From Okeania sp. KiyG1 (GTDB lineage: Bacteria; Cyanobacteriota; Cyanobacteriia; Cyanobacteriales; Microcoleaceae), in assembly GCF_014132355.1 (NCBI RefSeq), contig NZ_BLZO01000100.1:1-35818 (forward strand): a stretch of 35,818 nt of DNA, in the 5' to 3' direction. Both the position numbers and the translations under genes were made by a program. The notes beneath the pieces are model-generated. The model made no database searches and was not told the origin of the DNA. It saw only the letters and a program-made list of their open reading frames with translations. Below, in pieces: positions 18,398 through 31,945 of the stretch (position 1 is its first letter; each line of letters opens with the position of its first letter).

Positions 18398-18546
18398 GGC
18401 GTTGCTGAATTGAAGTATGAATGCGCGATTGTTTGGTTCTGGTCAAGCCCCCTAAATCCCCCAAGTTTGGGGGACTTTTAGAGTTTTATTCCCCCCAAAA
18501 TTGGCTTGCTCGGGGGGCTTGCATCATACCCAGAATCAGCAACGCC
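18398..18546. mobile_element. MITE-like element, family C, copy 1 (149 bp)
   Basis: It opens GGCGTTGCTGAATTGAAGTA and closes CAGAATCAGCAACGCC. Inside is a C/G-rich nested palindrome (CCCCCTAAATCCCCCAAG... and GAGTTTTATTCCCCCC). The flanks share AATAATTTATT (18384-18394 and 18547-18557), a likely target duplication with later changes. The copy at 21155-21303 is also 149 bp. The element lies within a longer open frame leading into the NnrU gene, which is why that frame appears extended. Confidence 0.8.
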
Positions 18547-20817: not shown

Positions 20818-20950
20818 GAAACATTAAATGTAAATATTTGTAAATAATTAGTTTTTGTAGCAACAGTTACAGAATTATTAGTTAATATAAATAAGTAAGG
20901 GAAAAAACTTCCTAAACATGAGTTAAATAATCAGGGGAGAAAATCTAAAT

Positions 20951-21145
20951 ATGTTCACTGAACCTCAAGCACGCTCTTTAATGGTACGTCACCACCACCT
21001 AGTAAAAAATCGTCAACAGTCAATGCTAAACAGAGTAGCTGTAGAAGTGGGCTTAGAAAATAGTAACTATTGGAGCCACATTCAAGGAAAAGTACAGCCT
21101 AGCTTTAGGAAAAATTATGAGCGCGGTAATGCTTCGATGAGCTAA
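20951..21145 (+). CDS. Small basic protein of tandem array, member 1 (64 aa)
   Basis: A divergent paralogue of the three genes that follow. It shares QARSLMVRHHHLVKNRQQSM, then a LNR-A-EVG segment, YWSHIQGK, PSF and the C-terminal NASMS. The N-terminal half is rich in Arg, His, Asn and Gln and could form an amphipathic basic helix; the second half holds invariant Tyr-Trp and Ile-Gln-Gly-Lys. There is no signal peptide or membrane helix. AGGGGAGA (20933-20940) is a good ribosome-binding site. I do not recognise the family. A 149-bp mobile element separates this gene from member 2. Confidence 0.8.
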   Translation: MFTEPQARSLMVRHHHLVKNRQQSMLNRVAVEVGLENSNYWSHIQGKVQPSFRKNYERGNASMS

Positions 21146-21154
21146 TTTATTTTC

Positions 21155-21303
21155 GGCGTTGCTGAATTGAAGTATGAATGCGCGATTGTTTGCTTCTGCT
21201 CAAGCCCCCTAAATCCCCCAAAATTGGGGGACTTTTAGAGTTTTACTCCCCCCAAAATTGGGGGGTTAGGGGTGGCAAAATCATACCCAGAATCAGCAAC
21301 GCC
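21155..21303. mobile_element. MITE-like element, family C, copy 2 (149 bp), exact 8-bp target duplication
   Basis: The ends are GGCGTTGCTGAATTGAAGTA and CAGAATCAGCAACGCC. TTATTTTC lies directly on both sides (21147-21154 and 21304-21311), an exact 8-bp target duplication. Same length and layout as the copy at 18398-18546, including the C/G-rich nested palindrome. It was inserted between members 1 and 2 of the small-protein array, just after the stop codon of member 1. Confidence 0.85.
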
Positions 21304-21373
21304 TTATTTTCTTTCTTGCCATCTTCATTAATCTTTAACAAACAACAATTAATCAAACAGGAGAATGAAAAAT

Positions 21374-21568
21374 ATGCCAGTAGAAAATCAAGCTCGTGCT
21401 TTAATGATGCGTCATCACAACCTAGTGAAAAACCGTCAACAGTCAATGCTCAACCGCACCGCCACAGAAGTCGGTGTAGAAGCAGATGATTACTGGGGAA
21501 ATATTCAAGGAAAACCATATCCTAGTTTTGTTACTACTTATGACCGTAGTCATGCTTCCATGAGTTAA
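21374..21568 (+). CDS. Small basic protein of tandem array, member 2 (64 aa)
   Basis: Begins MPVENQARALMMRHHNLVKN, followed by RQQSMLNRTATEVGVEAD, YWGNIQGKP, PSF and SHASMS. The start is decided by the ribosome-binding site: AGGAG (21360-21364) touches the ATG at 21365 but is 9 bases from the ATG at 21374, giving 64 residues like member 1. It is one of three near-identical genes repeated with a period of exactly 233 bp. The protein is small, basic, probably cytosolic and of unknown function. Confidence 0.82.
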   Translation: MPVENQARALMMRHHNLVKNRQQSMLNRTATEVGVEADDYWGNIQGKPYPSFVTTYDRSHASMS

Positions 21569-21606
21569 AGTGAAAATCAAAACTTAGCAACAGGAGAATG
21601 AAAAAT

Positions 21607-21801
21607 ATGTCAGTAGAAAATCAAGCACGCTCTTTAATGAACCGTCATCACAACCTAGTGAAAAACCGTCAACAGTCAATGCTCAACCGCGTCGCCACAG
21701 AAGTGGGCGTGGAAGCAGATGATTACTGGGGAAATATTCAAGGAAAACCACATCCTAGTTTTGTCACTACTTATGACCGTAGTCATGCTTCCATGAGTTA
21801 G
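21607..21801 (+). CDS. Small basic protein of tandem array, member 3 (64 aa)
   Basis: Near-identical to member 2, with LMNRHHN in place of LMMRHHN and NRVATEVG in place of NRTATEVG. The same AGGAGAATGAAAAATATG start region supports the second ATG. The intergenic stretch of 38 bases is also copied, so the unit of duplication is gene plus leader. Synonymous changes are few, pointing to recent duplication or gene conversion. Confidence 0.82.
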   Translation: MSVENQARSLMNRHHNLVKNRQQSMLNRVATEVGVEADDYWGNIQGKPHPSFVTTYDRSHASMS

Positions 21802-21839
21802 AGTGAAAATCAAAACTTAGCCACAGGAGAATGAAAAAT

Positions 21840-22034
21840 ATGTCAGTAGAAAATCAAGCTCGTGCTTTAATGATGCGTCATCATAACCTGATTAAAAATC
21901 GTCAACAGTCAATGCTGAACCGCACCGCAACAGAAGTGGGTGTGGAAGCAGATAATTACTGGGGAAATATTCAAGGAAAACCACATCCTAGTTTTGTCAT
22001 TACTTATGACCGTAGTCATGCTTCCATGAGTTAG
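21840..22034 (+). CDS. Small basic protein of tandem array, member 4 (64 aa)
   Basis: The last array copy, with HNLIKNRQ, EADNYWGN and SFVITYD as its distinguishing residues; otherwise like members 2 and 3. The start again follows AGGAG at 9 bases. It is followed 46 bases later by a hairpin-plus-T-tract terminator, so the cluster reads as one transcription unit. The invariant positions across all four members (RHH, KNRQQSMLNR, EVG, YW, IQGK, PSF, ASMS) imply selection on the protein. Confidence 0.82.
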   Translation: MSVENQARALMMRHHNLIKNRQQSMLNRTATEVGVEADNYWGNIQGKPHPSFVITYDRSHASMS

Positions 22035-22080: not shown

Positions 22081-22136
22081 AGTCGCAGTTTTCCTACCTG
22101 AGATATCCATCAAAGGAAGTTGCGACTGATTTTTTG
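22081..22136 (+). terminator. Rho-independent terminator after the small-protein array
   Basis: AGTCGCA (22081-22087) pairs with TGCGACT (22121-22127), extended by TTCCT/AGGAA. The descending arm is followed by GATTTTTTG. The stem-loop position just after the last array gene and before argJ fits an intrinsic terminator. Confidence 0.7.
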
Positions 22137-22240: not shown

Positions 22241-23482
22241 ATGTCAGACTGGCAAGTAATTACTGGTGGGGTAACAGCTCCTAAAGGATATCGAGCAACA
22301 GGAGTTACTGCGGGGTTTAAACCCTCCGGGGCACCAGACTTGGCCTTGATTTTGTCAGATGTAGACTCGATCGCAGCTGGAGTCTTCACGACAAATCAAG
22401 TACGAGCTGCTTGTGTGGACTACTGTCGGCAACAGCTAGAAGCTAAACCAAGTGCTAGGGCAATTTTGTGTAATTCTGGACAAGCAAATGCTGGTACTGG
22501 AAGTTTAGGTTTGCAGGATGCTGTGGAAAGTGCGGAAGTATTGGCTAAAGCACTCAATATTTCTCCAGAGTCAATATTACTAGCTTCTACAGGAGTTATT
22601 GGCAAACGAATTAAAATGGATGCTCTCAAAGCAGCAATTCCCGAGTTAGTCTCTACAGTTTCTACGGAAGGGGGAGAAGCGGCAGCTAAAGCTATTGTCA
22701 CTACAGACTTAGCCACAAAATCAATTGCTCTGGAAACTAAAATGGGCGATCGCCCGGTGCGTATTGGTGGCATTGCTAAAGGTTCTGGCATGATCCATCC
22801 GAATATGGCAACGATGCTGTCATTTGTAACTTGTGATGCAGCAGTTTCTCCTCCATTATGGCAAGAGATGTTAACAAGAGCAGTTAATCGTAGTTTTAAT
22901 CAAATTACTGTTGATGGGGATACGAGTACCAATGATACAGTAATTGCTTTGGCAAATGGTCAATCTCGCACCTCTGCTATTACTAATGTGGGGGCGGAGG
23001 CGGAAAAGTTGGAAGCGATGTTGACAGAGGTTTGTGTCTATTTGGCGAAGGCGGTAGCTCGTGATGGAGAAGGAGCAACTTGTCTGATGGAAGTTCAGGT
23101 TACAGGAACATCTGATGAAGCATCTGCTAATCAAATTGCTAAGACTATTGCAGGATCTTCTCTGGTAAAATCAGCTATTTTTGGTCGCGACCCCAATTGG
23201 GGAAGAATTGCCGGAGCTGCTGGTCGCGCTGGAGTTAAGTTTGAGCAGGAGCAGTTACAGATAAAGTTGGGAGACTTTTTGATGATGGAAAACGGTCAAC
23301 CTTTAGATTTTGACCGAGCTGCTGCTAGCGAGTATTTGAAGCAGAGAGCAGCGGGAGAATATTTGAAGGATGATACTGTGTTAATTTCTGTCAAAGTTGG
23401 GGATGGTGTTGGTAGTGGGAAAGCTTGGGGATGTGACCTGAGTTATGATTATGTGAAAATTAACGCTGAGTACACTACCTAA
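22241..23482 (+). CDS. argJ: Bifunctional ornithine acetyltransferase / N-acetylglutamate synthase ArgJ
   Basis: ArgJ transfers the acetyl group from N-acetylornithine to glutamate in the cyclic arginine pathway; bifunctional forms also use acetyl-CoA. The 413-residue protein has the self-cleavage site in KGSGMIHPNMATML, where Thr191 becomes the catalytic N-terminal nucleophile of the beta chain. Other family blocks are AILCNSGQANAGTG, LLASTGVIGKRI, VDGDTSTNDT, VARDGEGATCLMEV, FGRDPNWGRIAGAAGRAG and the C-terminal WGCDLSYDYVKINAEY. All key residues are present and the length is normal. A good ribosome-binding site (AAAGGAAAG) precedes the ATG. It is a single-gene unit between the array terminator and a mobile element. 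Confidence 0.96.
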   Translation: MSDWQVITGGVTAPKGYRATGVTAGFKPSGAPDLALILSDVDSIAAGVFTTNQVRAACVDYCRQQLEAKPSARAILCNSGQANAGTGSLGLQDAVESAEVLAKALNISPESILLASTGVIGKRIKMDALKAAIPELVSTVSTEGGEAAAKAIVTTDLATKSIALETKMGDRPVRIGGIAKGSGMIHPNMATMLSFVTCDAAVSPPLWQEMLTRAVNRSFNQITVDGDTSTNDTVIALANGQSRTSAITNVGAEAEKLEAMLTEVCVYLAKAVARDGEGATCLMEVQVTGTSDEASANQIAKTIAGSSLVKSAIFGRDPNWGRIAGAAGRAGVKFEQEQLQIKLGDFLMMENGQPLDFDRAAASEYLKQRAAGEYLKDDTVLISVKVGDGVGSGKAWGCDLSYDYVKINAEYTT

Positions 23483-31232: not shown

Positions 31233-31945
31233 TACATCAAAGCCCCCTAAATCCCCCAATTTTGGGGGCTTTGATGTAGCAAATTGACTCTTGTCCCCCC
31301 CAGAATTGGGGGGCTAGGGGGGCAAAATTTGGTTGTGGTCTACGCCCCCTAAATCCCCCAAAATTGGGGGACTTTGAGAGTTTTATTCCCCCCAGAATTG
31401 GGGGGCTAGGGGGGCAAAATTCAGTGCCCCCTAAATCCCCCAAAATTGGGGGACTTTGAGAGTTTTATTCCCCCCAGAATTGGGGGGTTAGGGGGGCAAA
31501 ATTCAGTGCCCCTAAATCCCCCAAAATTGGGGGACTTTGAGAGTTTTATTCCCCCCAGAATTGGGGGGTTAGGGGGGCAAAATTCAGTGCCCCCTAAATC
31601 CCCCAAAATTGGGAGACTTTGAGAGTTTTATTCCCCCCAGAATTGGGGGGCTAGGGGGGCAAAATTCAGTGCCCCCTAAATCCCCCAAAATTGGGGGACT
31701 TTGAGAGTTTTATTCCCCCCAGAATTGGGAGGCTAGGGGGGCAAAATTCAGTGCCCCCTAAATCCCCCAAAATTGGGGGACTTTGAGAGTTTTATTCCCC
31801 CCAGAATTGGGGGGCTAGGGGGGCAAAATTCAGTGCCCCCTAAATCCCCCAAAATTGGGGGACTTTGAGAGTTTTATTCCCCCCAGAATTGGGGGGCTAG
31901 GGGGGCAAAATCATACCCAGAATCAGCAACCTTGTACAATTTGAT
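31233..31945. repeat. Tandem array of C/G-rich palindromic ~82-bp units (expanded family C)
   Basis: Seven units start at 31343, 31426, 31508, 31589, 31671, 31753 and 31835 (period 81-83 bp), preceded by one divergent unit from 31233. Each has CCCCCAAAATTGGGGG and CCCCCCAGAATTGGGGGG, with CCCCCTAAA and CTAGGGGGG as outer arms, joined by ACTTTGAGAGTTTTATT. The array ends in ATCATACCCAGAATCAGCAA, the right end of family C, whose other copies (18398, 21155) have one unit. Open frames in it are artefacts. It is not a CRISPR array: there are no unique spacers. Confidence 0.85.

Follow-up and report, generated by a model that had tools for sequence, protein, structure and literature searches.

Four tandem gifA genes in Okeania sp. 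KiyG1

The window that we analysed, the whole stretch of 35,818 nucleotides from contig NZ_BLZO01000100.1 of Okeania sp. KiyG1, carries four consecutive genes that each encode a protein of 64 residues:

20951..21145, + strand: gifA copy 1 (IF7, older divergent type; NF052599, 112.2 bits)
21374..21568, + strand: gifA copy 2 (IF7, second type; NF052599, 118.3 bits)
21607..21801, + strand: gifA copy 3 (IF7, second type; NF052599, 118 bits)
21840..22034, + strand: gifA copy 4 (IF7, second type; NF052599, 121 bits)

A first-pass annotation, made from the letters of the sequence, had described four tandem genes for an unrecognised basic protein. The genes are real: four plus-strand open reading frames begin at 20951, 21374, 21607 and 21840. 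The reported period of 233 bp is exact for the starts of copies 2 to 4, and 423 bp separate the start of copy 1 from that of copy 2. Likeness to the unit of copy 2 is 94% for copy 3, 87% for copy 4 and 63% for copy 1, and the motifs listed as invariant (RHH, KNRQQSMLNR, EVG, YW, IQGK, PSF and ASMS) were each found in all four copies. The description of the leader was only partly accurate: AGGAG precedes copies 2 to 4, at 10 nt from the ATG and not 9, and copy 1 has AGGGGAG. Copies 2 to 4 also have an extra in-frame ATG three codons 5' of the assigned start; because this upstream ATG is missing from the copy-2 leaders shown for all eight relatives, the later ATG, which had been called the true start, is the likely one. 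The word basic suits copy 1 (9 K/R against 4 D/E, counted by eye) but hardly copy 3 (7 against 6, likewise). Since relatives keep both the frames and the unit, a chance repeat is ruled out. A genome search with E up to 10 returned no IF7-like match beyond the four window copies.

All four proteins match, over their full length and with 112.2 to 121 bits, the NCBIfam equivalog model NF052599 (glutamine synthetase inactivating factor IF7A, gifA), whose cut-off is 70 bits. They thus belong to a known family, IF7/gifA, and a match to a characterised family is what had been named beforehand as refuting their unrecognised status. A Pfam search of the four copies gave nothing above cut-off, which may explain the earlier impression that the protein could not be placed. 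For copy 1, a Pfam IL17R_fnIII match of 15 bits (cut-off 29.7) and two distant sub-cut-off NCBIfam matches were taken as chance; PDB chains gave no match to IF7, and phage records gave none either. Cyanobacterial glutamine synthetase (GS) is bound and, under plentiful ammonium, completely inactivated by the small proteins IF7 and IF17, of which IF17 is the longer (excerpts of PMC6316151 and PMC7760959).

A small regulatory protein in several copies was therefore right in outline. The more specific proposal of a small nucleic-acid-binding protein or a RiPP peptide precursor has next to no chance of being correct: its small size and several arginines are all that speak for it, against a full-length IF7A equivalog match in four of four copies, a promoter layout (below) that is that of nitrogen control, and three tested flanking ORFs that correspond to thioredoxin, NnrU and ArgJ. 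Nothing was found in support of nucleic-acid binding, the known action of IF7 being to bind an enzyme, nor of a peptide precursor, RiPP models being covered as far as they are part of Pfam and NCBIfam.

Protein features and the glutamine synthetase target

R8, R21 and R28, which we take to be the essential arginines of IF7, are invariant in 17 aligned IF7 sequences, namely the four window copies and those of 13 out of 17 loci (L007, L008, L011 and L019 left out). The predicted structure (mean pLDDT 72.7, pTM 0.42) has a single confident helix, N-terminal and spanning residues 3-33, on which all three arginines lie; its C-terminal half is uncertain. As for the target, the genome holds one full-length type I glutamine synthetase, GlnA, of 473 residues and collinear with the 473-residue PDB chain 3ng0_A, together with one partial glutamine synthetase match on a different contig from it. 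E419, N456 and R459 of GlnA, presumably the C-terminal GS residues that bind the inactivating factors, are identical in 3ng0_A (read off the alignment); the literature searched yielded no paper naming GS N456 and R459. Three arginines of IF7 are described as essential for GS binding, and the factor-binding residues of GS as not conserved among strains (PMC6316151, excerpt).

In Nostoc, gifA stands tail-to-tail with glnA (PMC11288750, excerpt), whereas here glnA lies on a contig other than that of the array. Because of this separate location, a Nostoc-style role of the array as antisense to glnA was considered unlikely.

Promoter layout and putative terminator

The following elements flank the array:

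20857..20870, + strand: putative NtcA-binding box, perfect GTA-N8-TAC, 12 nt before the -10-like TAATAT
20883..20888, + strand: -10-like element TAATAT, with its TAN3T spacing kept in relatives
22081..22135, + strand: putative terminator, hairpin AGTCGCA...TGCGACT then a T-run (fold and conservation)
22241..23482, + strand: argJ, downstream neighbour outside the array (Pfam ArgJ, 491.2 bits)

The geometry from box to TAATAT is that of an NtcA-repressed promoter, with the NtcA site at a repressing position as far as sequence can tell. Within the window alone GTAN8TAC is not above chance (5 found against 5.24 expected), so that the evidence is its conserved place. Of 21 arrays, counting that of the window, 20 have the box on their 5' side; in 17 of them the distance from its start to the first ATG is 81 to 99 nt. 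The other positions differ: L054 has a matching box at -449, behind an insertion; in L057 the loss of most of copy 1 has brought the box nearer to the array, close to the remnant of that copy; and the box of L068 is at -306, measured from the first whole copy. L069 showed no GTAN8TAC within 350 nt and no stricter-pattern box within 600 nt. The stricter pattern matched 18 promoters, and in 17 of these (counted by eye) TAN3T follows the box at exactly 12 nt; L064 and L065 have the box without the flanking base that this pattern requires. In published gifA promoters the box is centred at -30.5 in Synechocystis and at -28.5 in Anabaena (PMC6316151, excerpt), and the window box would be centred at about -31.5 if TAATAT is the -10 element. 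About 27 nt upstream of the box, at 20829-20845, lies a stretch like GTAAATATTTGTAA, similar in many arrays (by eye), which is perhaps a second, weaker NtcA site. In the leader of L054, an insertion of roughly 350 nt parts the promoter from copy 1.

At the other end, the terminator noted earlier after the last copy was borne out as a putative one: the hairpin folds at -19.3 kcal/mol (z -2.97), and 7 of 9 arrays inspected have the same stem with a T-run no more than 140 nt beyond their last copy. In L053 stem and T-run were not seen within 140 nt, and for L060 the view ends in a possible first arm. A strict promoter and terminator scan detected neither this promoter nor this terminator. Of 20 stretches examined, 13, from more than one genus, have an ArgJ match 3' of the array; the other seven show no ArgJ, and some of them end soon after the array.

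We consider it very probable that the locus is a tandem gifA operon, with four IF7 copies that are repressed by NtcA and inactivate GlnA after the arrival of ammonium. This reading is based on family membership, promoter layout, conservation and the presence of the target gene; repression by NtcA, binding to GS, a single transcript and a benefit of dosage are inferred or carried over from work on other cyanobacteria. When nitrogen is scarce, active NtcA would sit on the promoter-overlapping box and keep the operon off, whereas on arrival of ammonium NtcA would be released and the gifA genes could be transcribed. IF7 would then bind GlnA, with contact arginines that the model places on one N-terminal helix, and would inactivate it in proportion to the amount of IF7. 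Several copies probably increase the yield of IF7, and the high dosage suggested earlier is plausible for several gifA copies. With spacers of 38 nt between copies 2 to 4, separate promoters would have little space there.

A hairpin element between copies 1 and 2

The spacer between copies 1 and 2 has a different structure:

21147..21154, + strand: left target-site duplicate TTATTTTC (spacer comparison with relatives)
21155..21303, + strand: 149-bp hairpin element of the MITE kind, with ends GGCGTTGCTGA and TCAGCAACGCC (inverted repeat, fold, genome matches)
21304..21311, + strand: right target-site duplicate TTATTTTC (spacer comparison with relatives)

It measures 228 nt here against 71-77 nt in seven of eight relatives; in the eighth, L057, it is 127 nt long and carries a different insert. 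The lengths add up, since 228 = 71 + 149 + 8, the extra 157 nt being the element and the 8-bp target duplicate. The genome has at least 61 matches to the element (itself and partial ones counted; 40 of 340 candidates scored). On this comparison of spacers, the 149-bp hairpin element has evidently inserted between copies 1 and 2. The region 21146-21315 folds at -73.4 kcal/mol (z -6.86), and a single operon is uncertain in this genome because so strongly folded an element could split the transcript between these two copies. A second copy of the element, 89% identical, lies at 18398-18546, and a tandem array of its core with a period of about 82 bp occupies 31240-31930, ending in an apparent right end of the element.

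Two types of copy with different histories

A tree of 30 coding sequences from nine genomes divides copy 1 from the later copies, with 100/100 support for either side. The tree and the identity counts cover the copies of the window and of L053-L060, that is, 9 of 21 arrays, and exclude the remnant of copy 1 in L057 and a partial, N-cut copy in L059. The copy-1 clade holds eight genomes from at least three groups, and the split therefore predates the separation of these genera. Within a genome, copy 1 shares 68-77% DNA identity with the later copies (69.8-73.4% for the copies here). A single origin of copies 2 to 4 was not rejected (AU p 0.199). Judged by tree and identities, copy 1 is an older, distinct paralogue, and copies 2 to 4 are of a type that varies in number between genomes.

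Concerted evolution had been suggested for these genes, but in this genome it finds no support: copies 2 to 4 share 91.1-93.2% identity with each other and on average 92.7% with the second-type copies of five other genomes, so no recent homogenisation is seen here. Across six of the nine genomes (all but L058, L059 and L060), second-type copies are 96.1% identical within genomes (12 pairs) against 92.7% between them (79 pairs), and in some other genomes they reach 96-99.5%. The within-genome excess thus stems from genomes other than this one, and some lineages would recently have amplified or homogenised their copies. Values of dN/dS are 0.11-0.31 in 13 pairs, with 0.15-0.31 among the copies of this genome, and both types are under purifying selection.

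Such an old split raises the possibility of divided roles, with copy 1 acting as a basal GS inhibitor and copies 2 to 4 differing from it in strength, timing or target. The two groups at 100/100, their 68-77% identity within genomes, the purifying selection on both types and the unlike C-terminal halves (HIQGKVQPSFRKNYER against NIQGKPHPSFVTTYDR, copy 3, in the window) are consistent with this, but both types keep all three arginines, and L057 has lost most of copy 1 and has only the second type whole. Copy 1 could therefore be lost there. We regard divided roles as unlikely.

Copy number across relatives

The IF7A model matches in 56 of 62 genomes of the bacterial family, and 31 of these 62 have at least three matches (partial and IF17-type ones counted). 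A class-wide draw gave matches in 154 of 242 genomes, and outside the family no genome has more than four. Two genomes of genus g8, each assembled as a single contig, have six copies in a row (1 of the 12 lacks the first residues in its match), which makes assembly artefacts an unlikely source of such arrays.

Within the genus the second type numbers 1 to 4 copies in six genomes, and there are decayed copies, one with an internal TGA in G003 and the remnant of copy 1 in L057. Both observations could be expected if copy number were neutral, with unequal crossing-over making duplicates come and go without any benefit of dosage. The frames of this genome's copies are intact, though, with dN/dS values as given above, and half of the family genomes have three or more model matches, which argues against neutrality; we hold it to be somewhat unlikely.

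IF17 and the glutamine riboswitch

DUF4278 (PF14105), the N-terminal part of IF17, has no match in the genome (92.36% complete, 198 contigs), and the four 64-residue window proteins are without a Pfam DUF4278 match. At gathering scores Rfam gave no match in the window, and the glutamine riboswitch RF01739 gave none in the genome, with 150 of 1271 first-look candidates scored. Therefore no IF17 was found, an absence limited by the 92.36% completeness and the 198 contigs. DUF4278 is present in 51 of the 62 family genomes. The idea that extra gifA copies replace a missing IF17 was not supported, because the genomes richest in IF7-model matches, the two g8 genomes with seven each, also carry two DUF4278 matches each.

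We can hypothesise a GS brake of two parts tuned by dosage, in which an ancient IF7 is joined by an amplifiable second type of different strength in a lineage without IF17, where copy number would set the depth of GS shut-off and the hairpin insertion would partly uncouple the two parts in this genome. This is speculative, and we rate it as improbable.

Comparison with known systems

The window proteins resemble IF7A (gifA) of Anabaena/Nostoc sp. PCC 7120 and IF7 of Synechocystis sp. PCC 6803 in their full-length match to the IF7A model, and the NtcA box at the repressor position is common to the window array and the gifA genes of both strains. Synechocystis IF7 has 65 aa (PMC7760959, excerpt) against 64 residues in the window copies, and PCC 7120 and PCC 6803 have one IF7-type gene each (PMC6316151, excerpt) against four here. 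Limnospira indica PCC 8005, like the window, has several gifA genes in series, four potential ones numbered consecutively from _60802 to _60805, together with two potential gifB genes, one behind a glutamine riboswitch (PMC8400943, excerpt); neither gifB nor the riboswitch was found here. The C-terminal part of IF17 (gifB) resembles IF7 (PMC6316151, excerpt), but the window proteins, unlike IF17, lack the DUF4278 part at the N-terminus, and the search for a glutamine riboswitch gave no match.

The finding is thus largely ordinary: the protein family is well characterised, and its multi-copy arrangement is common in this bacterial family and has in part been published. What looked like an unknown family is accounted for, and the locus is linked to nitrogen control in a group of filamentous cyanobacteria. 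The new details are the distinct older copy 1, the second type of variable number and the 149-bp hairpin insertion. The useful parts are the two-type structure, which the gifA arrays compared here show as an old first copy beside a second type of variable number, and the copy-number series, a natural one for asking whether inhibitor dosage tunes glutamine synthetase.

Shortened IF7-like matches in relatives

At least 20 of 29 genomes of genus g9 and 3 of 3 of genus g7 have, shortly after a full-length gifA, a shortened IF7-like match that covers profile positions 1 to about 38, one of them with an in-frame stop. The three that we read, all in relatives (L072:2055-2192, L071:2072-2209 and L063:2274-2408), are 45-46 aa long with DRK at the C-terminus, retain R8, R21 and R28, and score 67-69.8, just below the IF7A cut-off of 70. 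Because these forms equal little beyond the predicted helix, it is conceivable that they act as a minimal inhibitor or as a competitor.
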